Positions 194-63,985 of a stretch of 64,000 nucleotides of DNA are shown in pieces. A model generated the notes under the pieces. It saw only the letters and a program-made list of their open reading frames with translations, ran no database searches and had not been told where the DNA came from. The first letter of the stretch is position 1, and each line of letters begins with the position of its first letter. The stretch comes from Microbacterium sp. CPCC 204701 (GTDB lineage Bacteria; Actinomycetota; Actinomycetes; Actinomycetales; Microbacteriaceae). Location of the stretch: assembly GCF_004010105.1 (NCBI RefSeq), contig NZ_RRYE01000001.1, positions 1-64,000 on the forward strand, in the 5' to 3' direction. The translations under genes and the position numbers were made by a program.

Positions 194-1279
194 ATGCGCA
201 TGACCGGGACGCCGCGCTCGTGGGTGCTGCACGTCGACCTCGACCAGTTCATCGCTGCCGTGGAGGTGCTGCGGCGGCCCGAGCTCGCTGGGAAGCCGGT
301 CATCGTGGGCGGACGGGGCGATCCGACCGAGCGGGCGGTCGTCTCGACCGCGTCGTACGAGGCGCGTGAGTACGGCGTCGGATCCGGGATGCCGCTGCGC
401 ATCGCCGCACGAAAGGTGCCGGACGCGGTGATCCTGCCGGTCGACGCCCCTACGTACCTCGCCGCCTCGGAGGCGGTCATGACCACGCTGCGGGCGCAGC
501 CGGGAGCGGTCGTGCAGGTGCTCGGGTGGGACGAGGCGTTCGTCGGCGTCGAGACCGACGACCCGGAGGCCGACGCCCGCCGCATGCAGCAGGCAGTGCT
601 GGACCGCACTCGGCTGCACTGCAGCATCGGGATCGGCGACACCCTGGTCCGCGCCAAGGTGGCGACCGGGTTCGGAAAGCCGCGCGGCGTGTTCCGGCTC
701 ACCGCTGAGAACTGGCTCGAGGTCATGGGCGAGCGACCCACCATCGACCTGTGGGGCGTCGGCTCGAAGGTCTCGAAGCGACTCGCGGCTCTCGGCATCC
801 GCACCGTCTCAGAGCTCGCCGTCGCCGGCGACGACGAGCTGACGACCGAGTTCGGGCCCCGCATGGGCCTCTGGTACCGGCAGCTCGGCCGCGGCGACGG
901 CTCGGCGGTCGTCGATGACACGCCCTGGGTGGCGCGCGGCCACAGCAAGGAGACCACGTTCCAGACGAACATCGTCGACCCCGCCGAGATCGAGGATGCG
1001 GCGCGGCGTCTGCTCGACGAGGTGCTCGACGAGGTCGCTGCCGACGACCGGCCGGTCGTGGGGCTCGGGCTGAAGGTGCGCTACGCGCCGTTCCTCACGA
1101 AGACGTTCACGAAGAAGATCCCCTCGACGTCCGACCGTGGCACCGTGATCGCCCGGGCGATGGAGCTCGTGGCGAAGATCGAGCCGGACCGGCCCATCCG
1201 CCTGCTCGGGATGCGGGCGGAGATGGCCATGCCCGAGGATGCACGGGAGGGGCACACGCCGACACGCGGGGGGTGGTGA
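194..1279 (+). CDS. dinB: Y-family DNA polymerase IV (DinB-like)
   Basis: Error-prone translesion polymerase that extends primers across damaged or stalled template in the cytoplasm. The protein is 361 residues, normal for the family. The first catalytic motif is HVDLDQF (Asp15), followed by the YEAREYGVGSGMP fingers segment near residue 55-66 and the second carboxylate pair in GWDEAF (Asp113, Glu114), then helix-hairpin-helix and little-finger regions. The fingers motif reads STASYEAR where many family members have SCSYEAR. Two ATGs (194 and 200) are possible and neither has a strong Shine-Dalgarno site. No LexA-type box is obvious upstream. The stop overlaps the start of an AraC fragment. 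Confidence 0.93.
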   Translation: MRMTGTPRSWVLHVDLDQFIAAVEVLRRPELAGKPVIVGGRGDPTERAVVSTASYEAREYGVGSGMPLRIAARKVPDAVILPVDAPTYLAASEAVMTTLRAQPGAVVQVLGWDEAFVGVETDDPEADARRMQQAVLDRTRLHCSIGIGDTLVRAKVATGFGKPRGVFRLTAENWLEVMGERPTIDLWGVGSKVSKRLAALGIRTVSELAVAGDDELTTEFGPRMGLWYRQLGRGDGSAVVDDTPWVARGHSKETTFQTNIVDPAEIEDAARRLLDEVLDEVAADDRPVVGLGLKVRYAPFLTKTFTKKIPSTSDRGTVIARAMELVAKIEPDRPIRLLGMRAEMAMPEDAREGHTPTRGGW

Positions 1280-23164: not shown

Positions 23165-23930
23165 TGGACAGGTTGCCTCGGCGATCGCAATCAGCGGACC
23201 TTCGACGCTGCCGCCGGTTTGGACGAGTTCCTCCGCCGCGCGAGCGACGATCTCGAAACGGGGCGCCAGTGGCGAGTCATAATTCTGGCATCCCGGGCGC
23301 CGTCGCGGGCTTCGCATGCGTCGAGGAACTCGCGGTGCTCGGCGAGACCCTCATCGTGACGTTCTCTCACCCGCGCGAAGGCCATCGGCAAATATGATGG
23401 GGTGGAGTCGTGAATGCTCCGGAGCATGTTGGCCAGTCGCGGTGAGCGCGCGCACTCGTACAGATAGGAATGGAATGCACGATTCAGCGAGAAGTACGTC
23501 TCGAAATCGACGGCTTCCATCTCACTCTGCAACCGCCGCGCCTCGACGAGCTCGTCCTCGGTAATGCGCTCGGCGACCAGCCGGGCGCAGTGGGGCTCGA
23601 GCAATTCGCACAGCTCCGCCATTTCCCGGACCTCGTCAGGGTCGATCCGCCGGACTGTATCGCCTTTGCGCGGACTCAGCTTCAGCAGACCCTCGGAATG
23701 CAGGTCGCGCATAGCTTCACGCACCGGGGTCGGACTGACGTTCAGCAGCTATCCCTCGGCAACCTTTTTCGCAGCAGCGAGTGTGCAGGTGAGGCTAGCT
23801 AGTCCGCGGTACTGGCGACTTTCGGAGCCCCACCAGGCGTTGCGATCCCGGGTGGTGATGTAGAAATACGCCGGTACGATCCTCGAAAGCTGCTCATCCC
23901 GAAACTCCCGGTAACTAACAGGCTCCACGT
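23165..23930 (-). pseudogene. GntR-FCD regulator, disrupted
   Basis: VSPTPVREAMRDLHSEGLLK (recognition helix and wing) and an FCD domain (ELCELLEPHCARLVAERI, LNRAFHSYLYECARSPRLAN, LAEHREFLDACEARDG) are clear. An amber codon at 23749-23751 lies just upstream of the recognition helix, and a frameshift near 23264 changes the C-terminus; the other frame reads FEIVARAAEELVQ. Upstream of the amber the same frame stays open to a GTG near 23931, but that stretch (VEPVSYREFRDEQLSRIVPA) does not resemble a GntR N-terminus and may come from another gene. Non-functional regulator. Confidence 0.75.
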
Positions 23931-24113
23931 TGATCCCCTCGCCAGCAGACTATCGATACCGAGTATCGGAGGGCGGTCGCCGCGAGGGCTCGGTGGGAGT
24001 TCAGTGCGCTTCTCGATGCAGGTGTTCGCAGATTCTTCGCAAATCGCGGGTCTTCGAGAAAGCTATGGCCCGCGATCCCAGTGTTTTCAAGGGATCGAGG
24101 GCCACGGACCAGA

Positions 24114-24135
24114 GCGGAGACGGAGGGATTTGAAC
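24114..24135 (-). other. tRNA 3'-end relic, candidate attachment site
   Basis: On the minus strand, TTCAAATCCCTCCGTCTCCG is the T-loop, 3' half of the T-stem, 3' acceptor strand and discriminator of a tRNA (serine-like ending). The T-stem 5' half does not pair properly and there is no anticodon arm or 5' acceptor strand. Such fragments are left at the distal end of elements integrated into tRNA genes. By its orientation the element would lie at higher coordinates, where cargo and conjugation genes are found. Confidence 0.55.
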
Positions 24136-24643
24136 TCCGTATGCTGCTACTTTGCTCCGCCACGTTCGAGTGCGTTCGCTTTGTTATGACGCGATCGCGA
24201 GCCCCGCTGGACCACGTTCAGCAGGACTCAAAGACGCTCAGGTTTACGCGATTCTTACGCAGGCGAGAGACGCCTCAGGGCTTCGAAGAAGCGGAAGCGA
24301 CGCGACACGCCTGTGCGCATGGCCCCCCGGAACGGGCACCTTGCGCGGGCGCGGTTTACGGGCATGCTAGACCTGAGCGGGCCGGAGGGCTCCTCAAGGA
24401 CGAACGTCCGAACGCTCAGCGACCCTCTCGCGAACACGGTCGGTGCCCGCAGTTAGACCGATCTGAGCGGTCGCGTCGAATGACACGGATGAACTGATAG
24501 ACACATCAGTCGGCCCTCGAATGGGCGCTCACTGTGGGGAGACGCGAGTTCGGGGAGGCTGGCGTACCCGAGCACCGGACCGCAATGTCGGACCCCCTTC
24601 GTAGACTGCAAAGGCCAGCCCGACCGAAGCGGAGCACGCCCCG
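24136..24643. other. Non-coding region before the CBASS operon
   Basis: No convincing gene. It holds a small dyad ACTGAT-AGACAC-ATCAGT (24493-24510), about 130 bases before the first CBASS gene, that could mark the operon promoter. The Shine-Dalgarno region of the CD-NTase gene (AAGCGGAGC, about 24627-24635) is modest. Confidence 0.4.
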
Positions 24644-25651
24644 ATGGCTCACCTGAAACAGCAGTTCAAGGATGCGTTGAGCTCCATCGAGCCCGGCGAT
24701 GACAAAGCCAATGCACCGGAGGCGCATCGGTTAGTCCGCGAAGCGCTCGTGGGTGACGCCAAGCTCGCCGAGTACGGGGTGAACCCAGTGCTGATCGGGT
24801 CCTACAAGCGAAGCGTGTCTATCAAGCGGGTGAAAGACGTTGACGTGTTCGTCCGTCTCCCCGATCTGCCGAGCGACGTCACGTCGAATGAAATCCTCGA
24901 CCGGGTCTTTACCGTCCTCCATGCCGAGTTCGGGCGTGATGACGACGGGCATCAGCGGACCAAGCGACAGGATCGAAGTCTGCAGGTCTCGTTCCCCGAC
25001 TACGACCTCTACGTCGATGCCGTTCCCGCGCGCCCCCATTGGGATGGCGAGACGTGGGAGATCCCGCAGAAGGGCGATGACAACCAGTGGGTGCGCACCA
25101 ACCCCGAATCGCTGACGTCTCTGTCGACCGCGATGAACACCGCGCACGACGGCTACTACGTCCCGACGGTGAAGCTGCTCCGCCAGACCCGGCGCTCTCT
25201 TCTCGGCAAGAAGAAGCCGGGGGGATTCTTCTTTGAGGTCGCCACATACCAGGCCTTCGCCTCGGGTCTGGTGACGGGGAGCGATCACGCGGAGTACTAC
25301 GTCTCGGCGCTCGACGAGGTGAGCAAGATCGTCGAGAACTTCGTCACTTACGGCATCGCGGTCAGCGACCCCACGCTCCCCGGGCACGCCATCAGCATCC
25401 GCGCGACCGATGATGAACTGGAGGCAGCTCGGAGTCGATTCATCGACGCCGCCGCCGACGCGCGGGACGCGCTCGGTGAGGAGGATGAGGGCAAAGCTGC
25501 GCTCGCGTTCCAGAAGCTGCTCGGCAAGAACGGCGACGACGACACCGTCTTCCCGATGCCGCCGGGCTTCAACGACGACGGATCGAAGCGGGAGTTCGCG
25601 ATTTCCGCTGGTGAACGAGTCGTGCCGGCGGGCGCCAGGACCTTCGGTTGA
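24644..25651 (+). CDS. CBASS CD-NTase (cyclic oligonucleotide synthase)
   Basis: 335 residues. The nucleotidyltransferase core is complete: GSYKRS (Gly52-Ser53), then KDVDVF (Asp65, Asp67), and the third carboxylate in LYVDAV (Asp125). Together with the downstream ligase, JAB, TIR and SAVED modules this identifies a cGAS/DncV-like nucleotidyltransferase that makes a cyclic nucleotide on phage infection. The C-terminus ends ...GARTFG. A terminal glycine is what a Cap2-type ligase would adenylate and conjugate. The subclade and the nucleotide made cannot be read from sequence. Stop overlaps the next start (TTGA). Confidence 0.92.
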   Translation: MAHLKQQFKDALSSIEPGDDKANAPEAHRLVREALVGDAKLAEYGVNPVLIGSYKRSVSIKRVKDVDVFVRLPDLPSDVTSNEILDRVFTVLHAEFGRDDDGHQRTKRQDRSLQVSFPDYDLYVDAVPARPHWDGETWEIPQKGDDNQWVRTNPESLTSLSTAMNTAHDGYYVPTVKLLRQTRRSLLGKKKPGGFFFEVATYQAFASGLVTGSDHAEYYVSALDEVSKIVENFVTYGIAVSDPTLPGHAISIRATDDELEAARSRFIDAAADARDALGEEDEGKAALAFQKLLGKNGDDDTVFPMPPGFNDDGSKREFAISAGERVVPAGARTFG

Positions 25652-27111
25652 CAATCACCGAGTACGACGAGTACGTCGCATACTCTCGTCAGCATTTCGA
25701 GGAAGGCCTGATTCGCGCGGGCTTCATCGAAGGCGACACCGGGTGGCGAGGTGCAATCACACATCCGGGCAAGTCGACAGAGGTCGTGATCTCATTTCGC
25801 GCCCGCTTTCCGTTCCAGCCGCCTCGCGTCGTTCCCGTCGACCCGGACAGCGTCGCGTGGTCCTGGCATCGAGAACTGGACGGCGCGCTCTGTTTGGTCG
25901 CGGAAGACGACCACGACGATCTGTGGTGGACAGAAGCGTCGGCCTTCCTGGAGCACGTGACCGCCTGGTTCGAGCAGGCGGATGCCGGGTGGCCCGATGA
26001 TCGGCCCGATCTGGATCTCGAGCGATATTTCCACCCGTCCGAGGACGAGCGTCTGTATCTCTACGACGACCTCGCCGGTTACCCGAACGGCTTCGTGCGA
26101 TTTCGCCCGAGTAGCAACAACACCATGCGTATCGGGAGCGGTACGCGCCCGCCGAAGGCGTCCAAGCACAGCAAGGACCGCTTTGGCTATGTCGCCGATC
26201 TCGGCGACATAGACGTTCCACCGAGATCCTGGCAGGACGTCGCGGCACGCATCGCCCCCGACGTGGACTTGGACCGCCGGATCCGGAACCACCTCGTCGA
26301 CATCGTGTTGCTTATCTACCGGCGCGGCATCCATGACGGTGCGATCCTCCTCGAGGTATCGCCGACGATAGACGGGGGTATGGCCGTTCGGCGCCTCTGT
26401 GCGGCAGCCGACACCAGTGCGGCGAAGACGGCTCGCGCGGGAGTGGTTGCGCCTCTGCTCCACGAATCTCGGGTCGCGATCGTCGGCGTGGGCGCGCTTG
26501 GCTCCTTCACGGCCGACCTGCTCGTGCGTGCCGGCATCCGACACCTGACGCTCGTCGACGACGACATCGTCATGCCCGGCAACCTCATCCGCCACCTCGT
26601 CGGACCGGAGATGGTCGGGTTGCCAAAGGTCACTGCGGTCAAACGACATCTGGTCGCCCGGCATGAGATCGCCGCAGACGACGTCGAGGAGCTCGGCGAA
26701 GCCGTCTCGTCCGGTGACGTCGCCATGCAGCTTCTGACGAGTCACGATCTCGTCGTGGATACCAGCGCCGACTTCGCCACGACCGCACTCCTGCATGTTG
26801 TGGCCAGGTCCGCGCGGAAGCGGATCATCTATGCCTCAATTCAGAACGACGGTGCCACCTTCCGCGTCGACCTACTCCCGCCACTCGATGGCGCCGACCA
26901 GCTGCCGAGCTCGAGGTTCGACGTCGATCAGCAGCCGCCCGCAGTGTTCGAAGCCGGGTGCGGCAGCCCGATCTCGCCAACACCACCCCACGTGGCCGTC
27001 GAAGCGGCATCCGCGACCGTCCGTCACGTCATCGGTCTCCTCATCGAAAGTCCCGTCCACCCATCAGGGGAAGTGCGAAACGTCGTCGACCCAGCAAGGA
27101 CTGCCCAATGA
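25648..27111 (+). CDS. CBASS Cap2-like E2-E1 fusion ligase
   Basis: 487 residues. The N-terminal E2 fold (about 1-130) has the active-site cysteine in DGALCLVAED (Cys82). The C-terminal ThiF/E1 adenylation domain (about 265-487) has VAIVGVGALGS (Gly280, 282, 285), the LVDDD acidic turn (304-306), GNLIRH and a catalytic-cysteine loop EAGCGSP (Cys438). In characterised type II CBASS this protein links the CD-NTase C-terminus to a target and primes its activity. It is shorter than typical Cap2 (about 600 residues). The start is TTG 25648, overlapping the CD-NTase stop, which suggests tight coupling and damped expression. Confidence 0.9.
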   Translation: MTITEYDEYVAYSRQHFEEGLIRAGFIEGDTGWRGAITHPGKSTEVVISFRARFPFQPPRVVPVDPDSVAWSWHRELDGALCLVAEDDHDDLWWTEASAFLEHVTAWFEQADAGWPDDRPDLDLERYFHPSEDERLYLYDDLAGYPNGFVRFRPSSNNTMRIGSGTRPPKASKHSKDRFGYVADLGDIDVPPRSWQDVAARIAPDVDLDRRIRNHLVDIVLLIYRRGIHDGAILLEVSPTIDGGMAVRRLCAAADTSAAKTARAGVVAPLLHESRVAIVGVGALGSFTADLLVRAGIRHLTLVDDDIVMPGNLIRHLVGPEMVGLPKVTAVKRHLVARHEIAADDVEELGEAVSSGDVAMQLLTSHDLVVDTSADFATTALLHVVARSARKRIIYASIQNDGATFRVDLLPPLDGADQLPSSRFDVDQQPPAVFEAGCGSPISPTPPHVAVEAASATVRHVIGLLIESPVHPSGEVRNVVDPARTAQ

Positions 27112-28880
27112 CTCGATCCGCTCCGAGCATCGACGTGCGTGCTGACGCCCACGAGACGATCGCATCCGAGACAGCGAAACGGCTACCATTCGAAACCGGC
27201 GGCATCCTTCTCGGGTACCGCGAGATCGACAACGTTGTGATCACTCACGCACTCGTGGTTGATGGCGGTGGCGCGACAAAGGACCGATACGTCCGCGACG
27301 ACATTCGAGCGAACGAGCGCCTCGCAGAGTTCCTCTCGGACAGAGCAGAGGACGACCCAATCGGCTACGTCGGAGAGTGGCACAGCCATCCCGCACCGTC
27401 CGGCCCGAGCACAATCGACCGCAACGCAATGCGCGCCGCGGCCAAAGCCGCTGACGGACCCGTCGCGCTCCTCGTATGCACGCCCGGCGACACTGGCACG
27501 TACTTCGGCCTGATCGCACGACGTCAGCGACTCGGCCGAGTCGTCACGCGAGACGCGAGCGTGACCGTCCCCCCGCCACGATTCGGTCAGCTCGGCCCGC
27601 TGCCCGATGGCGCAGCCCGCTCTGACGGCCCCGTGTTCATCTCGTACCGCCAGTCCGACGGGACACAGCAAGCGGAGTCCTTGGAGAACTTGCTCAGAGC
27701 CGCTGGCATCGTCGTATGGAGGGACCGCGTCGACCTGCGACCAGGGACGACCACCGACCGCCTCGAGCAGGCGCTCACCGAAGGGCTTTCGGCAGGCGTG
27801 CTCGTCGTGACGCCCGACATCGTCGACAGCGAGATCGTCCGCGAACGCGAACTCCCCCGACTGCTCCAGCTCGACAAGGACCCCGCGTTCAGCCTGTGCA
27901 TCGCCAACAAGATCGCACGGACGGGAAGCGAGTCGAAAAGCGACTACGACGCCCCCGACCGACTGCTGCGACTCGCGCCGGCACGAACCCTCGCCGACAA
28001 GAAGCAAGCCAACGTGCTCGACCCCGCAGGCGAGCTCGAAATCGTTCGCGACCTCCTCATGCACCGCATCGAACAACGCCGACCTGAGATCCGCGCAGAG
28101 GGCCGAGATTTCACCATTCGAGTTCAGAGCCGCCCTGCCCCGTTCGCCGTAGATGCCGACGACGACGACCTTCAGATGCGGATCAAGGAGGGCGCCGAAG
28201 GACGGCTCCCGTCGCCCGACGGCCTCGAACTCCTCCGGCGGACGCTCCCGCTCACCGGTGATGCAGTGTTCGCGGCAGGCGCGAAGCGCGTGCAGATCTC
28301 CGGCGGCGCACACCTCTCGATCGGACTCGCACTCGGGGCAGCATTGCCCGACACCAAGATCGGCAACGTCGCGGTCCTCGATGTGCAGAACAACGCTTGG
28401 GAGTCCACACCAACGAGCAACGATCCGGGGGTCACCGAACTCAACGTCGAGGCGCGCCCCACCGAGGTCACCCAGCCGAGCAGCACTGCGAACAGAGTCG
28501 CGGTCTTCGTGAAACTCACCGTAGACCCAGACCTCAGCGCGTTCGAGCGCCTCGTGCGGGAATTCGCAGACGGCTTAGCCAACGTGGAGATCGTCTCCGT
28601 CACGAATTCCAATCGGATCGATCCACGGGAAGCGGGCCGCCTCGGCCAAGCCGTCGCCCAGCACATCAAGCACCTGTCCGCAGATCACGGGCGCGCGGAA
28701 GTACATCTCGCCTTCCACGGCCCCTTCCCCATGGCCGTGCTCGTAGGGCGGTACCTGAACACGCTCCGCACCATCGCCTACGAATGGGACGGCGACACGA
28801 TCAACGGCTCCCGGTACCGGCCAGCGATCGCTCTCGAGCCCGGCGTCGCCGGTGGCCCGATAACCGAGGTACTCCTGTAG
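27108..28880 (+). CDS. JAB-TIR-SAVED tri-domain CBASS protein (Cap3 plus effector fusion)
   Basis: 590 residues in one uninterrupted frame. Residues about 10-140 are a JAB/JAMM isopeptidase: catalytic Glu29 in FETGGILLG and zinc motif EWHSHP ... STID (His92, His94, Ser101, Asp104). Residues about 174-300 are a TIR domain (GPVFISYRQSDG ... VLVVTPDIVDSEIVREREL) with Glu248 as the likely NADase glutamate. Residues about 330-590 are a SAVED cyclic-nucleotide sensor (KRVQISGGAHLSIGLALGAA, RAEVHLAFHGPFPMAVLVGR). ATG 27108 overlaps the Cap2 stop as ATGA; upstream in-frame codons read through Cap2. Expected role: deconjugate the CD-NTase, and destroy NAD+ when SAVED binds its signal. Cap3 is normally a separate protein. 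Confidence 0.92.
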   Translation: MTRSAPSIDVRADAHETIASETAKRLPFETGGILLGYREIDNVVITHALVVDGGGATKDRYVRDDIRANERLAEFLSDRAEDDPIGYVGEWHSHPAPSGPSTIDRNAMRAAAKAADGPVALLVCTPGDTGTYFGLIARRQRLGRVVTRDASVTVPPPRFGQLGPLPDGAARSDGPVFISYRQSDGTQQAESLENLLRAAGIVVWRDRVDLRPGTTTDRLEQALTEGLSAGVLVVTPDIVDSEIVRERELPRLLQLDKDPAFSLCIANKIARTGSESKSDYDAPDRLLRLAPARTLADKKQANVLDPAGELEIVRDLLMHRIEQRRPEIRAEGRDFTIRVQSRPAPFAVDADDDDLQMRIKEGAEGRLPSPDGLELLRRTLPLTGDAVFAAGAKRVQISGGAHLSIGLALGAALPDTKIGNVAVLDVQNNAWESTPTSNDPGVTELNVEARPTEVTQPSSTANRVAVFVKLTVDPDLSAFERLVREFADGLANVEIVSVTNSNRIDPREAGRLGQAVAQHIKHLSADHGRAEVHLAFHGPFPMAVLVGRYLNTLRTIAYEWDGDTINGSRYRPAIALEPGVAGGPITEVLL

Positions 28881-33926: not shown

Positions 33927-34450
33927 GGGACCCTCATACGAGTCGTCACGAGAAGGTCCTGGGGCGGCGTAACGGCTTGATCTCGAAGTCGAGAGTGTCG
34001 CATGCCGATGCGATAAGAAGTGAGCGTGTTGTCGATTGAGCCTCGGCGAGTGGTGAGCATTGCGGCGGTCGGACTGGCAATGTTCTGCGTGACGGGATGT
34101 GCCTCACAGTCCTCGGGAGCGTGTGTCGCTCCAGAGGCGACCGCGTCACCGGCGACCGGCGCACCTGCTCAGTCCATAACCATCGATGGGCAGTACTGGC
34201 AGCCGTGCAATGACACCAACCACTCCACAGAAAGCCCCTGGCCCAGCGCATCGATCGAATGGGCCCAGTCGGACGAAGCGGTCCCAGTTGGAACCATCCC
34301 TATCGAGGACGGTGCATTCAGCGGCGAGGTTGAGATCCCTGCGGCAGCGGTGCCTGGCGATGCGGTGTTGCGAATCAGCGCCGGATACTACGAACTCGAA
34401 CTGCCGATCACAGTGTCCGAACCGTAAAGTACGCACGCCAGTCGACCGGC
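33927..34450 (+). repeat. Direct duplication, copy 1 (lipoprotein gene and flanks)
   Basis: This block reappears at about 44166-44690 in the same orientation with about 95 percent identity over roughly 525 bases, including about 90 bases upstream of the lipoprotein gene. Similarity ends abruptly on both sides. Offset is 10,239-10,240 bases, with a one-base indel near 33955. Confidence 0.9.
34020..34427 (+). CDS. Small lipoprotein (copy 1)
   Basis: 135 residues with lipobox VTGC (RRVVSIAAVGLAMFCVTGCA). The mature part (ITIDGQYWQPCNDTNHSTES, IPIEDGAFSGEVEIPAAAVP, VLRISAGYYELELPITV) looks like a beta-sandwich of the kind seen in exported actinobacterial proteins. GTG 34020 is the listed start; a GTG about 30 bases later is possible. 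It differs from copy 2 at a few positions (for example Gln/Arg and Gly/Arg changes), so both copies are probably expressed or recently were. Confidence 0.75.
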   Translation: MSVLSIEPRRVVSIAAVGLAMFCVTGCASQSSGACVAPEATASPATGAPAQSITIDGQYWQPCNDTNHSTESPWPSASIEWAQSDEAVPVGTIPIEDGAFSGEVEIPAAAVPGDAVLRISAGYYELELPITVSEP

Positions 34451-38479: not shown

Positions 38480-39427
38480 GTGGTGTTCTCATGGCTGATG
38501 GCTGAGGAGTTAGCGACCGCTCACATGCGCGGGCTCGGATTCACCGACGCGCGTCGCACGGGAGCTGGTGCAGACAGAGGAGTTGATGTCACAGCCTCGG
38601 ACGCTGTCGCACAGGTGAAGTACCTGTCCTCCCCGGTGGGTAGCCCTGACATCCAACGGTTCCGCGGTGCTGCTCACCTGGTACGAAACGCGCTGTTCTA
38701 CTCATGGTCGGGCTACACCCGAGCGGCGCACACCGCCGCTGACGAGCTCGGCGTCGCGCTGTTCGAGGTCGACGAACACAACCACGTGCAGTCGGTCAAC
38801 CATGCGGGCAACGTCATCGTCGCACCGCCCCCGCTCCCGCCGGCCCGGGAGCGGACGCTGGAAGAGCGCGATGAGGATGCCCTCCTCGCCGAAGTCCACC
38901 GGACCCGCTTCATCACTTGGGCGTGGAGGTCGATGTCCGCGCGGGGCAGGACCAAGTACTGGGACAACGCGTATGTCACCCCGGACCGTGCCGACCTCGA
39001 ACTGCCAGACTTGCTCGACCGGCTTCCGCTCGAGGAATCCCGGGATTCCGTGGTCGCAGCGATCCGCGAGACCCAGGCTGTGTCGAAGGGGCTCCTGAAC
39101 GTGCAGCATGCCATCAAAGACCGCGCCCGCCACCGGGACTGGACGGTGAAGAAAGTCGAGTGGAAGGTATCGATTGCGCAGTACATAGCGGAGAATCCGG
39201 GATGGCAGCCGCCGGAGTACACGTATGTCGAGATGCCTGACCTGCGGCGGACCTTCGGAGAGCTTGCCGGCAGATTGGCTGCGCTGCAGCGCGACCTGAT
39301 CGCGGCGACCTCGCAGCCTGCCGAGCTTCGGCGCCTGGTCCTCAACGAAGCGAGGGCGTTGCTTCGCGAGGAGATAGATGACTTCCACGAGAGAGGGTAC
39401 CCGCCGAGCCTGGCCTGGCCCGCGTAG
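38480..39427 (+). CDS. Mrr-like restriction endonuclease-domain protein
   Basis: About 315 residues. The N-terminal domain is a PD-(D/E)XK nuclease of the Mrr_cat type: AEELATAHMRGLGFTDARRT, then GADRGVDVTASDAVAQVKYL, giving Glu9/10, Asp36 and Gln45-x-Lys47. A helical C-terminal region of unknown type follows (about 110-315). Stand-alone Mrr-like proteins commonly restrict modified foreign DNA. No methylase is nearby. Start choice (GTG 38480, GTG 38483 or ATG 38450) is uncertain. Likely defence cargo. Confidence 0.75.
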   Translation: MVFSWLMAEELATAHMRGLGFTDARRTGAGADRGVDVTASDAVAQVKYLSSPVGSPDIQRFRGAAHLVRNALFYSWSGYTRAAHTAADELGVALFEVDEHNHVQSVNHAGNVIVAPPPLPPARERTLEERDEDALLAEVHRTRFITWAWRSMSARGRTKYWDNAYVTPDRADLELPDLLDRLPLEESRDSVVAAIRETQAVSKGLLNVQHAIKDRARHRDWTVKKVEWKVSIAQYIAENPGWQPPEYTYVEMPDLRRTFGELAGRLAALQRDLIAATSQPAELRRLVLNEARALLREEIDDFHERGYPPSLAWPA

Positions 39428-44165: not shown

Positions 44166-44690
44166 GGGATCCTCATACGAGTCGTCACGAGACAAGTGCT
44201 GGGGCGGCGTAACGGCTTGATCTCGAAGTCAAGAGTGTCGCATGCGGATGGGGTAGGAAGTGAGCGTGTTGTCGATTGAGCCTCGGCGGGTGGTGAGCAT
44301 TGCGGCGGTCGGACTGGCAATGTTCTGCGTGATGGGATGTGCCTCACAGTCCTCGGGAGCGTGTGTCGCTCCAGAGGCGACCGCGTCACCGGCGACCGGC
44401 GCACCGGCTCAGTCCATAACCATCGATGGGCGGTACTGGCAGCCGTGCAATGACACCAATCACTCCACAGAAAGCCCCTGGCCCAGCGCATCGATCGAAT
44501 GGGCCCAGTCGGACGAAGCGGTCCCAGTTCGAACCATCCCTATCGAGGACGGTGCATTCAGCGGCGACGTTGAGATCCCTGCGGCAGCGGTGCCTGGCGA
44601 TGCGGTGTTGCGAATCAGTGCCGGATACTACGAACTTGAACTGCCGATCACAGTGTCCGAACGGTGAAGCGCGCACGCTAGTCGACCGGT
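44166..44690 (+). repeat. Direct duplication, copy 2
   Basis: Second copy of the block at about 33927-34450, same orientation. The flanking sequences differ completely from those of copy 1, so the duplicated unit is limited to the lipoprotein gene and about 90 bases upstream of it. Confidence 0.9.
44260..44667 (+). CDS. Small lipoprotein (copy 2)
   Basis: 135 residues with lipobox VMGC, otherwise near-identical to the protein at 34020-34427. Differences are VMGC for VTGC, Arg for Gln in ITIDGRYW, Arg for Gly in VPVRTIP, Asp for Glu in FSGDVEI and the final Arg. Most differences are conservative, and the frame is intact, which argues against decay of either copy. Confidence 0.75.
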   Translation: MSVLSIEPRRVVSIAAVGLAMFCVMGCASQSSGACVAPEATASPATGAPAQSITIDGRYWQPCNDTNHSTESPWPSASIEWAQSDEAVPVRTIPIEDGAFSGDVEIPAAAVPGDAVLRISAGYYELELPITVSER

Positions 44691-45257: not shown

Positions 45258-46223
45258 GTGCTCGCGCTGGCACGATCGCGCGACACAATCCCAGGTGCGG
45301 ACGCGCTGCCTGGAGGGTCAAGGTACGAACCCAAGTGGGACGGCTACCGAGCAGCAATCGCCCGCACGGACGCCGCCCACATTTGGTCGCGCCGTGGCAC
45401 GGACATGACGGCCGCGTTCCCAGAGCTCGCGGCCAGCATCCTGATGCTGCCTCCGGGCACCGCGCTCGACGGTGAGATCGTGGCCTGGGTGAACGGGCGA
45501 TTGGACTTCGACGCATTGCAGCAGCGGCTGAGCGCCGGAGCGAAACGTCGCGCCGCCCTGGTCCGGGAGCTGCCCGCGTCCCTCGTCCTGTTCGACCTTC
45601 TGACTATCGACGGCCGGGACATCCGCCAGGAGCCCTTCGACCGCCGCCGGCAGCTGCTCGAAGAGCTCGCCAGAAATTGGCAGCCGCCACTCGAGCTGTC
45701 TCCCATGACCGACGACGAGGCGGTCGCGTCGGACTGGTTCGAGGACATGAGCGCCGCGGGTATCGAGGGTCTCATCGTCAAAGGAGCCAGTCAGCCGTAC
45801 GTGCGCGGCGAGCGGATCTGGATCAAGGTCAAGCACCGCCGAACCCTCGACGTCGTCGTCGGCGCCGTCATCGGGCCGATGCGGCAGCCGGAGGCGGTCG
45901 TCGTCGGCTTTCCGGATGACGATGAACTCAGAATCGTGGGGCGGTCCACTCCGCTCAAACCGGCCGTGGCTCGTGCACTCGGATCGTTGCTCCGCGCTCC
46001 GGGCGGCACCCACCCGTGGCCCGAGGTCGTCTCGCCCGGCGCGGTTGACCGATTCAACGCCGGCCGAGACCCGGTCCAGCTCACGCTGGTACATCCGACC
46101 ATGGCTGAGGTCTCCGCAGATGTCGCCCTCACGCGAGGCGCATTCCGGCATGGCGTTCGCTACCTCAGGCTGAGGCCGGATCTCGACGTGCCCGTCAGCT
46201 GGCTCCCGCAGGTCTCCCGCTGA
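45258..46223 (+). CDS. ATP-dependent DNA ligase (LigC/LigD-ligase type)
   Basis: 321 residues. The adenylation lysine is in EPKWDGYRA (Lys26), followed by ALDGEIVAW (motif III region), GIEGLIVKGASQPY (motif IV) and WIKVKHRR (motif V), with an OB-fold C-terminus. It has no polymerase or nuclease domain, as in LigC. GTG 45258 is the listed start, although residues just upstream (LIPLPP) also resemble family N-termini and could be included by an unusual start. Likely joins nicks during element replication or repair. Confidence 0.88.
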   Translation: MLALARSRDTIPGADALPGGSRYEPKWDGYRAAIARTDAAHIWSRRGTDMTAAFPELAASILMLPPGTALDGEIVAWVNGRLDFDALQQRLSAGAKRRAALVRELPASLVLFDLLTIDGRDIRQEPFDRRRQLLEELARNWQPPLELSPMTDDEAVASDWFEDMSAAGIEGLIVKGASQPYVRGERIWIKVKHRRTLDVVVGAVIGPMRQPEAVVVGFPDDDELRIVGRSTPLKPAVARALGSLLRAPGGTHPWPEVVSPGAVDRFNAGRDPVQLTLVHPTMAEVSADVALTRGAFRHGVRYLRLRPDLDVPVSWLPQVSR

Positions 46224-59334: not shown

Positions 59335-60081
59335 ATGATGATGTCTGCGCCCCGCAGCAAGGCCGCGCGTCGAGGGATGGTCTGGGCCTTCGTGGGCGGG
59401 CTGATCGTGGTCGGGGCCATCGTGGCGATCGTCATCTCGTCGATCTTGAGCCAGACGCCGACCACTGATCCGACTCCGACAGGTTCGGCCGCCCACACCA
59501 CGGCACCTGACGCCACGACCGCTCCCGAGAGCGAGTTCGTCGATGCCGACGTTGCGGAGCGCGGGTGGGTTCCGGAGCCGATCACTACCGACCCCGACGT
59601 CTATGTACGCGGAGCATTGGCTGCGGCATCCACTTTCGACACCCAACTCAGCACGCGTCAGGAGTGGATCGCGTATCTCGACACGTGGTTCACGCCCGAC
59701 ATGCGCTACACCTCCGAGCAGGACCGCAAAGACGACATGCAGGCCGCACAGCTCGAGCTGCGGCAGGGCGTCGTCCTGCCGGAGGATGAATGGAACTCGC
59801 TCGCGAACGAGAACGGGCGCGTGACGGCAGCGGTGCCGGGCGACATCTCATATCAAGCAGTTCCGGATGACGCGTCCGGCGACATGCGCATCGGGACGGC
59901 CGACGTCGTACTCACCTACACCCGTGCCGACGATTCGGGCACCGAGTCGTCGTACGACGAGACGGTACGCGTGAGCGTGCAGGTGCTGTGCGAAGACGGC
60001 TCGATCCCCACACCGGACAGCGCGCAGCAGCCCGGAGACTGCAAGGTCGTCCGCTACTTCTCGGGGTCATTGGAGGGCTGA
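59335..60081 (+). CDS. Conjugation-associated single-pass membrane protein
   Basis: 248 residues. One membrane helix (WAFVGGLIVVGAIVAIVISS), a Thr/Pro-rich exported linker, and a globular exterior domain (FDTQLSTRQEWIAYLDTWFT, GDISYQAVPDDASGDMRIGT) that in size and topology resembles VirB8/TcpC-like scaffold proteins of type IV secretion. First gene of the operon, behind a good GGGGAGG site at three consecutive ATGs (59335 preferred). Confidence 0.75.
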   Translation: MMMSAPRSKAARRGMVWAFVGGLIVVGAIVAIVISSILSQTPTTDPTPTGSAAHTTAPDATTAPESEFVDADVAERGWVPEPITTDPDVYVRGALAAASTFDTQLSTRQEWIAYLDTWFTPDMRYTSEQDRKDDMQAAQLELRQGVVLPEDEWNSLANENGRVTAAVPGDISYQAVPDDASGDMRIGTADVVLTYTRADDSGTESSYDETVRVSVQVLCEDGSIPTPDSAQQPGDCKVVRYFSGSLEG

Positions 60082-60082
60082 C

Positions 60083-60694
60083 ATGGGCGCCCCGGTCGCT
60101 GCCGCAGCAGCTCTCGCGAACACCAAGACCGGGCGCAGAATCGTATCGGGGGCGTTGCTGTTCGTCGTGCTCGCAGTAGGGCTACTGCTGACGCCGCTCA
60201 TCGCGATTCCGTTCGCCGTAGGCGGTCAATCAGCGGCGAGTGCGATCGCGAATCGCCCGGCCCTCGTCGCGAGCGGCGCGTGGGGCTACCCACTCGCCGG
60301 CGACTACTGGAAGGGGCGCGGCTTCGGGTACAACCCTGTCGTCGGGTGCAGCTACTGCTCCACGAATCACCTGGGTTACGACATGGCGCAGTCGTGCGGC
60401 GCGACGATCTTCGCGTCCGGACCGGGCCGCGTCATCACTGCCGGCTCGTACTTCGGGTGGGGAAACACTGTCCGCATCGACCACGGCGACGGCCTCGTCA
60501 CGCTCTACGGGCACATGCAGTGGGACTCGATTCGCGTGTCCGTCGGAGACACCGTTGACGGCGGTACGCCGCTGGGAGCGGAGGGCAACACCGGTCGATC
60601 CTTCGGCTGCCACCTGCACTTCGAGGTCCAGCGCGATGGCGTGCCGATCGACCCACAACCGTTCATGGCCGCGCTCGGCCTTCCGCTCAAGTGA
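60083..60694 (+). CDS. M23 (LytM-like) peptidase of the conjugation operon
   Basis: 203 residues. One membrane helix (about 21-45) then a LytM domain with zinc ligands His96 and Asp100 (NHLGYD) and His179 in CHLHFEV, plus His144 in LYGHM. Cuts peptidoglycan cross-links to let the transfer channel cross the wall. ATG 60083 lies one base after the previous stop. Confidence 0.9.
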   Translation: MGAPVAAAAALANTKTGRRIVSGALLFVVLAVGLLLTPLIAIPFAVGGQSAASAIANRPALVASGAWGYPLAGDYWKGRGFGYNPVVGCSYCSTNHLGYDMAQSCGATIFASGPGRVITAGSYFGWGNTVRIDHGDGLVTLYGHMQWDSIRVSVGDTVDGGTPLGAEGNTGRSFGCHLHFEVQRDGVPIDPQPFMAALGLPLK

Positions 60695-60714
60695 ACCAAC
60701 CGAGGGAGCAAGAC

Positions 60715-61014
60715 ATGCGAACAGCACTCACCGCGCCGGCAGACGTCGACGTTCCCGACATCGAGCCCGACTTCTCGGCGCCGTTCTTCCAGGGCTTCCA
60801 GGTCATCGCGTCCTACATCCTGGCGGGCGCCATGATCGTCGTTCTCATCATGCTGATCATCGCCGGTGCCGCTCTCGCGTTCCGCGGCCTGGCCTCGGAC
60901 CGTGTGCGCACGTGGGCCGGCGAGAACATCCTCTGGATCTTCATCGCCGCCGCAGTGCTCGGCGCCGCGAGCGGACTGTTCCAATGGTTCGTCAACTTCG
61001 ACTTCGGGTTCTGA
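60715..61014 (+). CDS. VirB2/TrbC-like small membrane protein
   Basis: 99 residues with two membrane helices (VIASYILAGAMIVVLIMLII, ENILWIFIAAAVLGAASGLF) joined by a short basic loop, the layout of pilin-like or coupling subunits in Gram-positive type IV systems. ATG 60715 is preferred over GTG 60691 because GAGGGAG precedes it. Stop overlaps the next start (TGATG). Confidence 0.75.
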   Translation: MRTALTAPADVDVPDIEPDFSAPFFQGFQVIASYILAGAMIVVLIMLIIAGAALAFRGLASDRVRTWAGENILWIFIAAAVLGAASGLFQWFVNFDFGF

Positions 61015-62495
61015 TGGCCCGGCTGCGTCCGGGCCTTCTCGGTGCGGCGCTGGGCCTCGGAATCGCGTTGACCGCGGTCGTGCCCGCAAGCGCGGCGGAA
61101 GCCGGTCGCGCAACAACCGCGGCATCCGTCGCCGTCGCATCTGCCGCGACGAACGCGACGCCCGTGTCCGGCGAACCCTGGTCATCGCCCGCGTATCCCG
61201 TCGACTGTTTCCGCGTCGACGAGCAGGTCACCTGCACGCCGCAGAACACCGCAGACATCAAGCCGCAGCAGTGCTTCATCAACGTCTTCGTCGACGGGGC
61301 GAAGGCCACTGTCTGCACGACTGACGAAGCGCATGTGTCGGCCATCAAGACCAGCGGCGGCAAGCCCCTGCTCGTCGAGTACGGCTGCTCGATCGGCGAC
61401 GTCGTCTGCGTGACGTTCGAGAACGCGGGACGAGGGATGGCACTCTCGGCAACGTCGATGATGCTCGCCGTCGCACAGAACATGCGCTTCGATACGTCGT
61501 CGCTGCTGTGGACCGCCTCGACCAAGGAATGGTCGTTCTGGCAATGGGCCGTGCTCGCGATCCTTTTCGGCGCGATGGTCTGGGCGGTCGCCGCGGCCAT
61601 CGTCTCGGGTGATCGGGCCGAGCTCGTCGGCGCGATCGTGCGCAGCTTCATTGCGATCCCGGCTACGGCAATCAGCCTCTGGGCGACCGGGCACCTGCTC
61701 AACGCGGTCGACGACCTGACCTGGTACGTCATGAACCGCGACGGGTCGGGCGGATTGTTCTCGACGCTGCAGTCGGTCATGTGGGCAGGTGGGCAGGCGA
61801 ACTACTTCTTCGCGTTCGTCATCCACGGCTTGCTGATGATCGGGATGCTGCTTCTCATGCTCGTCTTCGCCTTCCGCAACATCGTGCTCGCGGCATTGAT
61901 CGCGGTGGGGCCGATCGCATGGATGCTGTACCCCGTGCGAGCGGTCGGGCCGCAATGGGTCGTCCGATACGTCTCGGCCGTCGTAGTGCTGCTGCTCACC
62001 GGGCCGCTCACGATCGGCTTCGTGACGCTCATCATCAATGGCCTCGCGAGAGTGCGGACGATCTGGGATCCACAGTCTTGGCCGCTCTTGATCGGGCTGA
62101 TTCTCGTCACCTTCGCGCCCTTCGCCGTCTTTGGCCTCTTCAGCTTCGTCGGCGCGGTTGCGGCCGATTCGATCGGTTCGCGGATCGGCTCGGGAGCTGG
62201 TCAGGCCGCATCTAGAGCGGCGCGATCGGCGTCCCACGTGCCGAGTCGGATCACGGCGCTGCCCGCGGGCATCGGCACCCGGGCAGCAAGCAGATCCCGC
62301 GGGAGCGGCCCGACTTCAGGCTCCTCGCCGTCTGGTACTTCGGGCAAGGCGCCGGCTGGTCAATCGAACTCCCCCTCGGCGCCGTCAAACTCCGCCACGC
62401 CGACACCCTCGGCCCAGACGACACCCTCGGCCCAGACGACACCCCCAGCGCCGACGAACACCCCTGCACGCACCCGCACTGAGAGGACAGCGTGA
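61014..62495 (+). CDS. VirB6/TrbL-like polytopic membrane protein
   Basis: 493 residues. Signal peptide (RLRPGLLGAALGLGIALTAV ... PASAAEA), an exported cysteine-bearing loop, five or six membrane helices (about 150-370) and a Ser/Thr/Pro/Ala-rich C-terminal tail with a repeated segment. This is the usual architecture of the channel protein in actinobacterial type IV transfer systems. Start at ATG 61014 overlaps the previous stop; a long in-frame extension upstream is antisense noise. Confidence 0.85.
   Translation: MARLRPGLLGAALGLGIALTAVVPASAAEAGRATTAASVAVASAATNATPVSGEPWSSPAYPVDCFRVDEQVTCTPQNTADIKPQQCFINVFVDGAKATVCTTDEAHVSAIKTSGGKPLLVEYGCSIGDVVCVTFENAGRGMALSATSMMLAVAQNMRFDTSSLLWTASTKEWSFWQWAVLAILFGAMVWAVAAAIVSGDRAELVGAIVRSFIAIPATAISLWATGHLLNAVDDLTWYVMNRDGSGGLFSTLQSVMWAGGQANYFFAFVIHGLLMIGMLLLMLVFAFRNIVLAALIAVGPIAWMLYPVRAVGPQWVVRYVSAVVVLLLTGPLTIGFVTLIINGLARVRTIWDPQSWPLLIGLILVTFAPFAVFGLFSFVGAVAADSIGSRIGSGAGQAASRAARSASHVPSRITALPAGIGTRAASRSRGSGPTSGSSPSGTSGKAPAGQSNSPSAPSNSATPTPSAQTTPSAQTTPPAPTNTPARTRTERTA
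62403..62438 (+). repeat. Tandem 18-bp repeat in the TrbL-like tail
   Basis: Two exact copies of ACACCCTCGGCCCAGACG (62403-62420 and 62421-62438) followed by a partial third encode TPSAQT repeats. Copy number may vary by slippage and would only change tail length, since 18 is a multiple of three. Confidence 0.85.
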
Positions 62496-63985
62496 TGACC
62501 ACACACGACCTGGCACGCCCCGTCCGCCTTCCCCGACGTTCACGGCAGGGCGTCGTGATGGGCATGGACGGTTGGCAGCTGACATGCATCACGATCGCGG
62601 CGATCGCGCTGCTGGCGAGCGTCAACCGCTTCGGCCCTCCGGGACTGCTCTACGCGGCGCCGCTCTATCTGCCGGTCGGAGGGTTCGCGTTCGTCATGAT
62701 CCATGGCGACTCGGCGCCGCGACAGGTCGCCCTCTGGCTCATGAAGCAAGCAAGGCACATCGCCCGCGCGACACGCCACGTCTATCGCCCCGAGCGTGCG
62801 CAACTCGCGGGCACGCTGAACCTTCCCGGCATTCGCGCGTCGATCCAACTGTGGGACGTCGACGGCGTCGCGTGCGCGTACAACCCGCACGACCGGTCAG
62901 TCTCCGTCACCGCCGAAGTCGAGGTGCAAGGGTTCCTGATGAAGGATCTCGCCGAGCGCTACGACCTCGCGCAGCAGTGGTCGCCCGTGCTCGCGTCGTT
63001 CACGCAGCGACCCGGGATCAAGCGCGCGGTGCTCCAGGAGCGCACGATCCCGACGACGATCCGGGCGGCTCACGATCACTACGAATCCACTCGGCGTCGG
63101 CGCGGGCTCGACGAGGCCTCACCGGTCTCTCGCAACTACGACGAGGTCATGGACCGGTCCGAGGCGTTCGCGGTGTCGCACCGCAACTATCTGACGTTCA
63201 CGCTCGACCTGATCGCCCTGGGGCCGCAGCTCAAAGCCCTCGGCGGCGGCGAGGGTGCCGTCAAGGCCCTCGCTTCCCTCGAGGCGCGCAATCTCGCCGA
63301 CGCTCTGAATGCGGCGCGCATCCGAGTGCGGAGCTGGCTGACGGTGCGGGATGTCGCGGCCCTTGCTCGCATCGGATTCGACCCCGAGTTCGCGGCCAAC
63401 GTGCAGAACCGCGACGACGCGCAGCGGGGCGTCGATCCCATCGCGATCGGACCGATGTACCTCGAGGAGCCCCGAGGCTCGAACGGCATCGTCTACAGCG
63501 ACTCGGCCGTGCACACGACGATGTGGATCCACGAATGGCCTCGGTCCGATGCCGCCGTCGGGTTCGTCGAGTCGATCGTGTTCGCCCGGATGCCGTCGAC
63601 CGGCGAAGCGATCACGCACATCCTGTCGATTGTCCTCACGCCGGTCTCGGTGAAGAAGGCGATGCGCCGCATCGAGGACGACAAGAAGGTGTGGCGAGGC
63701 AACGAGAAGCTGCGTGCCAAGCGCGGCGTCGACGGCTCAGCTGCGGACGCGGCCGATTGGGAGGCACTCGAGCGGCAAGAAGAGGAGATCGTCGCCGGTC
63801 ACGGCGAGTTCCGGTACGGCGCCTACCTGACCGTCACGGCTCCCAATGAGCAGAAGCTCGAGCAAGCGATCGCCGGCATGCGCAACGCGCTCGCACGAGC
63901 GGGCATGGAGCCGCAAGTCCTCTACTGTCAGCAGGCCGAAGCGCTCATGGTCAATGCGCTTCCGCTGGGTCTGGGGATGAAGTGA
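62495..63985 (+). CDS. SCO6880-type conjugation protein
   Basis: 496 residues. Two N-terminal hydrophobic segments (about 26-45, 50-70) and a large cytosolic domain (LNLPGIRASIQLWDVDGVAC, RNYLTFTLDLIALGPQLKAL, GSNGIVYSDSAVHTTMWIHE). This is the SCO6880 family, found upstream of the VirB4-like ATPase in actinobacterial mobile elements; it takes a PrgI/VirB3-like position. ATG 62495 overlaps the previous stop by one base and the gene ends at the next start. Confidence 0.88.
   Translation: MTTHDLARPVRLPRRSRQGVVMGMDGWQLTCITIAAIALLASVNRFGPPGLLYAAPLYLPVGGFAFVMIHGDSAPRQVALWLMKQARHIARATRHVYRPERAQLAGTLNLPGIRASIQLWDVDGVACAYNPHDRSVSVTAEVEVQGFLMKDLAERYDLAQQWSPVLASFTQRPGIKRAVLQERTIPTTIRAAHDHYESTRRRRGLDEASPVSRNYDEVMDRSEAFAVSHRNYLTFTLDLIALGPQLKALGGGEGAVKALASLEARNLADALNAARIRVRSWLTVRDVAALARIGFDPEFAANVQNRDDAQRGVDPIAIGPMYLEEPRGSNGIVYSDSAVHTTMWIHEWPRSDAAVGFVESIVFARMPSTGEAITHILSIVLTPVSVKKAMRRIEDDKKVWRGNEKLRAKRGVDGSAADAADWEALERQEEEIVAGHGEFRYGAYLTVTAPNEQKLEQAIAGMRNALARAGMEPQVLYCQQAEALMVNALPLGLGMK

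Follow-up and report, generated by a model that had tools for sequence, protein, structure and literature searches.

The 22 bases at positions 24114-24135 of the window, by which we mean the whole 64,000-nt stretch of DNA that was analysed, are very likely the attR-side core of a 91,982-bp ICE (element A) that resides in a tRNA-Ser(GCT) gene and lies beside the remnant of an older element (element B). Element A carries two antiviral defence systems, a CBASS next to this end and a Dpd DNA-modification system, and its other end is found on a second contig of the same assembly. A 23-bp palindrome in the remnant of element B recurs at the tRNA-proximal ends of many integrative elements in the genus.

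An orphan tRNA end and its intact counterpart

The orphan 22-mer (GTTCAAATCCCTCCGTCTCCGC, minus strand), located exactly where the initial annotation had reported it, is 100% identical to bases 69-90 of the 92-base tRNA-Ser(GCT) gene, which bears out the view that it corresponds to the part of a tRNA from the T-loop to the discriminator. It was the only match in the window when up to 3 mismatches were allowed, and none of 100 dinucleotide shuffles of the window contained any such match, by which a chance origin of the fragment was ruled out. As had also been stated, no tRNA body accompanies it: the body is absent upstream of the 22 bases, ARAGORN detected no tRNA in the window, and an Rfam search of the window at the gathering threshold gave no match.

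Because the tRNA 3' end points to the left, the element was expected to lie to the right, with an intact tRNA closing its far side. The window's contig (C1) ends at 69373, inside the conjugation operon, and belongs to a draft assembly of 641 contigs (3.62 Mb, 1.64% contamination). Throughout this assembly, the 20-mer core was found at three places with at most 2 mismatches. The only exact copies are the orphan in the window and C334:46870-46889, the latter being the 3' end of an intact tRNA-Ser(GCT) gene (C334:46867-46958, minus strand). A tmRNA called by ARAGORN on C334 overlaps this tRNA gene and was treated as false. The third place, with 2 mismatches, is on contig C112. An orphan tRNA 3' end of the tRNA-Ser(CGA) type, again without a tRNA body, is present at C112:45694-45719 (TTCAAATCCCACCGTCACCGCCA) and is probably the edge of another island.

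The last 146 bases of C1 are identical to the first 146 bases of C334, and among the loose candidates that were scored (40 of 109) this sequence was found in the genome only at these two contig ends. Upon joining the contigs through this overlap, which is a single one in a 641-contig draft, the two cores would be 91,982 bp apart (20-mer core at joined positions 24115 and 116097). Element A would then occupy positions 24114-64000 of the window and continue through C1:64001-69373 and C334:1-46868 up to the intact tRNA. The gene order across the join was compared in 17 loci fetched with the C1 coupling protein (14 from Microbacterium, 2 from Actinomycetes MAGs and 1 from a Planctomycetota MAG). 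In all 17, homologs of the first two C334 genes, encoding a 118-aa protein and an SSB, directly follow the coupling protein, and the relaxase comes next in 14, some of the loci ending early. The G+C content of element A is 64.2%, versus 70.3% to the right of the tRNA. An intact tRNA with the same 3' end and an adjacent integrase had been predicted beyond the window, and both are indeed present on C334, in agreement with the proposed placement of the element to the right. The proposal of an element larger than 40 kb that holds the CBASS and a type IV transfer operon likewise holds, both being located within the 92 kb.

Close to the R end, at 24242-24263 (minus strand), there is a pair of direct repeats with an 11-bp period (TGCGTAAGAATCGCGTAAAC). 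When read outward from the tRNA, the repeat pair of the C334 end (TGCGTAAGGAACGCGTAAACGT) and that of the C1 end (TGCGTAAGAATCGCGTAAACCT) match at 19 of 22 positions, the maximum in 60 shuffles being 17. These paired repeats near both ends are probable integrase arm-type sites. A further set of sites was chosen by integrase similarity: of the 30 best matches, the 21 whose stretch contains a tRNA were retained and C334 was added by hand, giving 22 integrase-anchored sites, and the other eight were dropped. In 20 of them, pairs of 6-mer repeats with an 11- or 12-bp period begin between +69 and +74 relative to the tRNA end; arm-type repeats at a fixed distance from the core are also a feature of a lambda-type attP.

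Gene content and relatives of element A

The tRNA end of element A carries an intact gene for a 375-aa tyrosine integrase (C334:44221-45348; PF00589, E 1.5e-21) that is convergent with the tRNA, a nearby gene for an 82-aa HTH_17 protein (Pfam) that probably represents the excisionase, and a zeta-toxin-like gene. Immediately upstream of the gene for the integrase, C334:43626-44228 encodes a 200-aa protein without a match in Pfam or NCBIfam; all six relatives included in the comparison have a homolog of it, with 49-85% identity. The conjugation operon starts within the window (59338-63985, plus strand) with genes that include those for an M23 peptidase (60083-60694) and an SCO6880-family protein (62495-63985). 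Beyond the window it continues with a VirB4-like ATPase, an AAA/ParA-like protein and a TraG/VirD4-type coupling protein (C1:66920-68716; PF12696, E 8.5e-26; PF02534, E 1.1e-20). The ATPase matched VirB4 models (E-values between 3e-13 and 8e-7) but fell far short of the curated NCBIfam cut-offs. C334, which encodes the SSB, also carries the relaxase gene (C334:6430-9441), whose product combines a TrwC domain (PF08751, E 1.1e-29) with a helicase domain and scores 85 bits against NCBIfam MobF, the cut-off being 100. With this gene content, element A is probably a self-transferring ICE, which would be capable of excision and conjugation.

A type II CBASS (24644-28880, plus strand) adjoins the orphan end, and the CD-NTase, E1/E2 and JAB proteins and the effector by which such a system is recognised are all present. 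It comprises a nucleotidyltransferase of the SMODS/cyclase type (24644-25651; PF18144, E 2e-13; PADLOC Cyclase, E 8e-157), an E1-E2 fusion (25648-27111; ThiF PF00899; PADLOC E1-E2, E 2e-205) and a JAB-TIR-SAVED effector fusion (27108-28880; PADLOC SAVED5 SAVED_TIR_JAB, E 4.6e-300). Between the integrase end and the relaxase gene, C334 carries a Dpd 7-deazaguanine system, for which PADLOC reported DpdD, DpdE, DpdF, DpdH, DpdJ, two DpdB proteins and, weakly, DpdG, while DpdA was found by a separate check. Both the preQ0-synthesis and the restriction genes expected of a Dpd system are present. QueC and FolE2 were recognised by Pfam, and QueD and QueE are putative assignments made by position, QueE also having a radical SAM match. 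All diagnostic proteins of the JAB-TIR-SAVED CBASS and of the Dpd system match PADLOC families, and compared with known systems there is nothing unusual except for the presence of both on one ICE and the two DpdB genes.

Other cargo includes a gene with an Mrr-type restriction endonuclease domain (38480-39427), possibly the third defence gene on element A, and a protein with an ATP-dependent DNA ligase domain (45258-46223). A segment of about 530 bp is duplicated within the element with 95% identity, the copies being about 10 kb apart and each containing a small lipoprotein-like ORF (34050-34427 and 44266-44667).

Relatives of the integrase (E≤1e-70) occur in 136 of 295 genomes of the genus, including this one. 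A relative of element A in genome G018 lies on a single contig together with tRNA-Ser(GCT) and encodes a 74% identical integrase, a relaxase, a coupling protein and a T4SS in the same order. It ends in a 24-base orphan core 75.5 kb from the tRNA, and its R end aligns with that of element A over 58 nt (76%, E 9e-7). Four kb past this orphan, at G018:C7:25994-26085, there is a second full-length tRNA-Ser(GCT)-like copy with 90% identity. More generally, the T4SS-type ICEs of the genus (G140, G018, G330 and G048) resemble element A in having a T4SS, a coupling protein, an SSB, a relaxase and an integrase beside a tRNA-Ser in the same order. Relatives with the same transfer genes are thus bounded by a tRNA, and an exact core is limited to two places in the assembly; neither observation conflicts with the boundary proposed by the initial annotation, which would have been called into question by relatives lacking such a boundary or by copies of the fragment at many unrelated places. 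The arm repeats differ between the elements of the genus, and so does the cargo: among six compared stretches only G330 has CBASS homologs, and Dpd genes were found in none of them. The related ICE of G330 (G330:C1, loci L178-L179) encodes homologs of all three CBASS proteins with 25-42% identity, located beyond the relaxase and not at the far end as in element A.

As described in PMC3218068, AICEs of actinobacteria have a tyrosine integrase, integrate in a tRNA gene and are flanked by att repeats, and tandem insertion at one tRNA is known for Frankia and Streptomyces elements; element A is similar in all these respects. However, AICEs transfer by means of a single FtsK/SpoIIIE-like protein, whereas in element A a coupling protein of the TraG type, a VirB4-like ATPase and a TrwC relaxase are present. 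Element A also resembles ICEKp1 of Klebsiella (PMC13023037) in being an ICE at a tRNA gene and in the stem-loops found between the tRNA and the integrase gene. It differs in that its integrase gene is convergent with the tRNA, whereas int of ICEKp1 is co-transcribed with the tRNA, and in that the hairpin of the present elements is a conserved 23-mer. Element A can be regarded as a new ICE of an already known kind, the palindrome being the only part that may be new.

The junction to the left of the orphan

The left side of the window was said to consist of metabolic operons. These are indeed present, but the bases directly beside the orphan belong to the end of a second integrative element. Positions 24023-24104 (minus strand) match the tRNA-proximal end of the G140 ICE over 82 nt with 95% identity (E 5e-35); past these 82 nt, no further match was found in the 400 nt compared. 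The matching segment holds a 23-bp palindrome (GATCCCTTGAAAACACTGGGATC, 24074-24096, minus strand), 18 nt past the discriminator of the orphan, which marks the L end of element B, and a direct-repeat pair (TGCGAAGAATCTGCGAAC, 24024-24041, minus strand), which according to the repeat comparison forms arm-type sites of element B that are unlike those of element A. The edge is therefore a junction of two elements rather than one between an element and native chromosome, and the match implies that element A was inserted between the tRNA and the end of the older element.

Further to the left (1280-24022; G+C 61.6-68.2% in four blocks) are catabolic and transport operons with genes for a CoA-transferase, an enoyl-CoA hydratase, BKACE, an amidohydrolase and oligopeptide-type ABC transport, together with traces of transposases, among them a transposase fragment. 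A GntR-type (FCD) regulator gene at 23191-23928, which appears to be interrupted, adjoins the element B remnant, with transposase-like pieces close by. Comparison of the left 24 kb with six relatives revealed no ICE backbone genes, so that the search for backbone remains of element B in this region was negative. A second orphan further left was not convincingly detected (best match 16 of 24 bases), and the far end of element B was not located. At the very left, a Y-family DNA polymerase gene (dinB-like; 194-1279, plus strand; Pfam IMS) was considered as a candidate chromosomal flank gene of the hotspot. In G028, 15.7 kb separate dinB from tRNA-Ser(GCT), and the two genes are oriented relative to each other as they are here. 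However, the distance exceeds 180 kb in nine other genomes that have both on one contig, and dinB is therefore a weak anchor for the left flank. The sequences downstream of tRNA-Ser(GCT) vary from genome to genome: in 19 relatives these stretches have little in common with C1, and none of them proved to be an empty site that shares the left flank. The idea of a simple empty site in the relatives was consequently abandoned. Extra partial copies of tRNA-Ser(GCT) on the same contig were observed in 7 of the 34 other genomes of the genus that were compared (G003, G013, G017, G018, G025, G033 and G034), which indicates that tandem accretion at this tRNA is common.

Could the left side nevertheless be native chromosome, with the palindrome and repeats representing the native tRNA terminator? 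We consider this very unlikely. It is true that native tRNA-Ser(GCT) sites of several relatives also have a terminator-like hairpin at this position and that the left flank carries ordinary metabolic operons. However, the 23-mer is missing from the native hairpins examined, the G018 ICE shows no palindrome outside its R junction, and the distribution of the 23-mer across the genus is patchy (69 of 295 genomes, counting this one). Above all, a native left flank at the edge had to be rejected in view of the 82-nt match to an ICE end, arm repeats included. The tendency of the hotspot to build arrays, as judged from the partial tRNA copies in 7 of 34 other genomes of the genus, and the mosaic gene content of element A would also fit with a view in which the 92 kb represent two or more elements side by side. 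This is highly unlikely, since the assembly contains no third exact core, there is a single set of integrase, relaxase and T4SS, and a self-comparison revealed no duplicated transfer gene. An extremely improbable explanation would see the orphan as a tRNA-like fragment that arose by chance, or as an old tRNA pseudogene, without connection to any element, and C1 and C334 as unrelated contigs of a mixed assembly. The draft of 641 contigs with its contamination of 1.64% and the failure of ARAGORN to call a tRNA at the orphan might point in this direction, but such a view is contradicted by the exact 22-mer on the right strand and in the right place, the exact 146-bp overlap, the gene order that is kept across the join in all 17 loci and the matching arm repeats of both ends.

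Ordinary recombination by a tyrosine integrase that targets a tRNA gene accounts best for the presence of element A at this site. We infer the following history. The integrase would have catalysed recombination between the copies of the tRNA 3' end on the element and on the chromosome, leaving the tRNA whole at the integrase end on C334 and the 22-bp copy at the far end (24114-24135). Before element A arrived, the tRNA would have been followed directly by the sequence now to the left of the orphan. This sequence would then have formed the tRNA-proximal end of element B, an older relative that is still recognisable over about 80 bp. Without element A, the site would thus read tRNA-Ser(GCT), then TCTGGTCCGTGG, then the palindrome.

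A palindrome at tRNA-proximal element ends

The 23-bp palindrome GATCCCTTGNAAACACTGGGATC is present both on C334 and to the left of the orphan. It occurs at the tRNA-proximal ends of many integrative elements, in most cases with a spacing of 17-18 nt to the tRNA (loci L081-L110 and L132-L159). With at most 1 mismatch it was found in the 69 genomes of the genus mentioned above, the reversed control giving 0; in a sample of the order, allowing up to 2 mismatches, it was present in 8 of 18 genomes of the same genus, in 2 of 16 from elsewhere in the family and in 1 of the remaining 362. Among 38 distinct sites, 19 are separated by 17 or 18 nt from the discriminator of an intact tRNA, with 12 at Ser-CGA, 3 at Ser-GCT, 2 at Met and 1 each at Glu and Ser-GGA (3 of the 19 reversed), and 7 are reversed and 5-7 nt from tRNA-Ser(GGA). 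Another 6 lie beside orphan tRNA ends, five of them at 16-18 nt, with 18 nt for the one in the window, and one at 6 nt. The remaining 6 fell outside the classes used by the script; one of these is a tmRNA end and one abuts the 5' side of a tRNA-Gly. In the integrase-anchored set, 12 of the 22 sites have the 23-mer with no more than 1 mismatch, and there it stands between the core and the arm repeats; it had 4 mismatches in 2 sites and was absent (6 or more mismatches) from 8. A strict test for arm-type repeats was passed by only 10 of 22 motif-anchored tRNA sites versus 119 of 2200 random windows, and by 3 of 22 other tRNA-Ser(GCT) sites; the reversed Ser(GGA) group failed this test.

An Rfam search of the C334 site gave nothing but the tRNA above threshold, so that the palindrome has no Rfam family there. 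Its core had no exact match in viral_contigs, and a literature search with the motif letters and for attachment sites in Microbacteriaceae, in which most subscription journals were outside the coverage, yielded no description of it.

Two readings of the palindrome can be envisaged, which are not mutually exclusive. It may be a terminator that takes over from the one displaced upon insertion, by analogy to ICEKp1, where the native terminator of the tRNA gene ends up on the far side of the inserted element (PMC13023037). This would be consistent with the hairpins found at the same place in native sites and with the long stems and T-runs of many element sites, which are like those of intrinsic terminators. 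Alternatively or in addition, the palindrome might be a putative protein site of the recombination complex, a tentative reading that we regard as possible but rather unlikely. It would fit with the fixed spacing from the tRNA, the distances of 17-18 and 5-7 nt being about one helical turn apart, and with the finding that the loop and one half-site are conserved. In the 57 one-mismatch sites listed, the changes affect the left stem 28 times, the loop 27 times and the right stem only twice (13, 21 and 2 distinct sequences, respectively), leaving the right half nearly invariant; such an asymmetry would not be predicted for a plain RNA stem, with the proviso that shared descent inflates the counts. 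In the attP of phage lambda, the IHF H' site is located between the core and arm sites, which is also the position of the palindrome. In its boldest form, and with equally limited confidence, this reading would view GATCCCTTGNAAACACTGGGATC as a sequence-specific accessory site, more than a terminator, that is common to integrative elements of Microbacteriaceae with different integrases and tRNA targets, placed at a fixed helical phase and bound by one common host or element factor controlling integration or excision. What speaks against a protein site is its absence from 8 of the 22 integrase-anchored sites, as well as the differences between close tRNA-Met integrases, where L143 has the 23-mer, L147 has it with 4 mismatches and L150 lacks it. 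On the integrase tree, the palindrome label requires 4 changes, a number as low as this being reached in 6 of 500 shuffles, and its presence is therefore clustered by descent. The modest outcome of the strict repeat test and the terminator-like appearance of many sites also count against the boldest form of this reading.

Altogether, our analysis places this CBASS and a complete Dpd system as cargo on a 92-kb ICE whose backbone is widespread in the genus, and identifies the host tRNA as a hotspot that gathers elements in tandem. The 23-bp palindrome provides a simple marker of tRNA-proximal element ends even where the integrase has been lost, and it raises the question of whether many different integrases share one common accessory DNA site.
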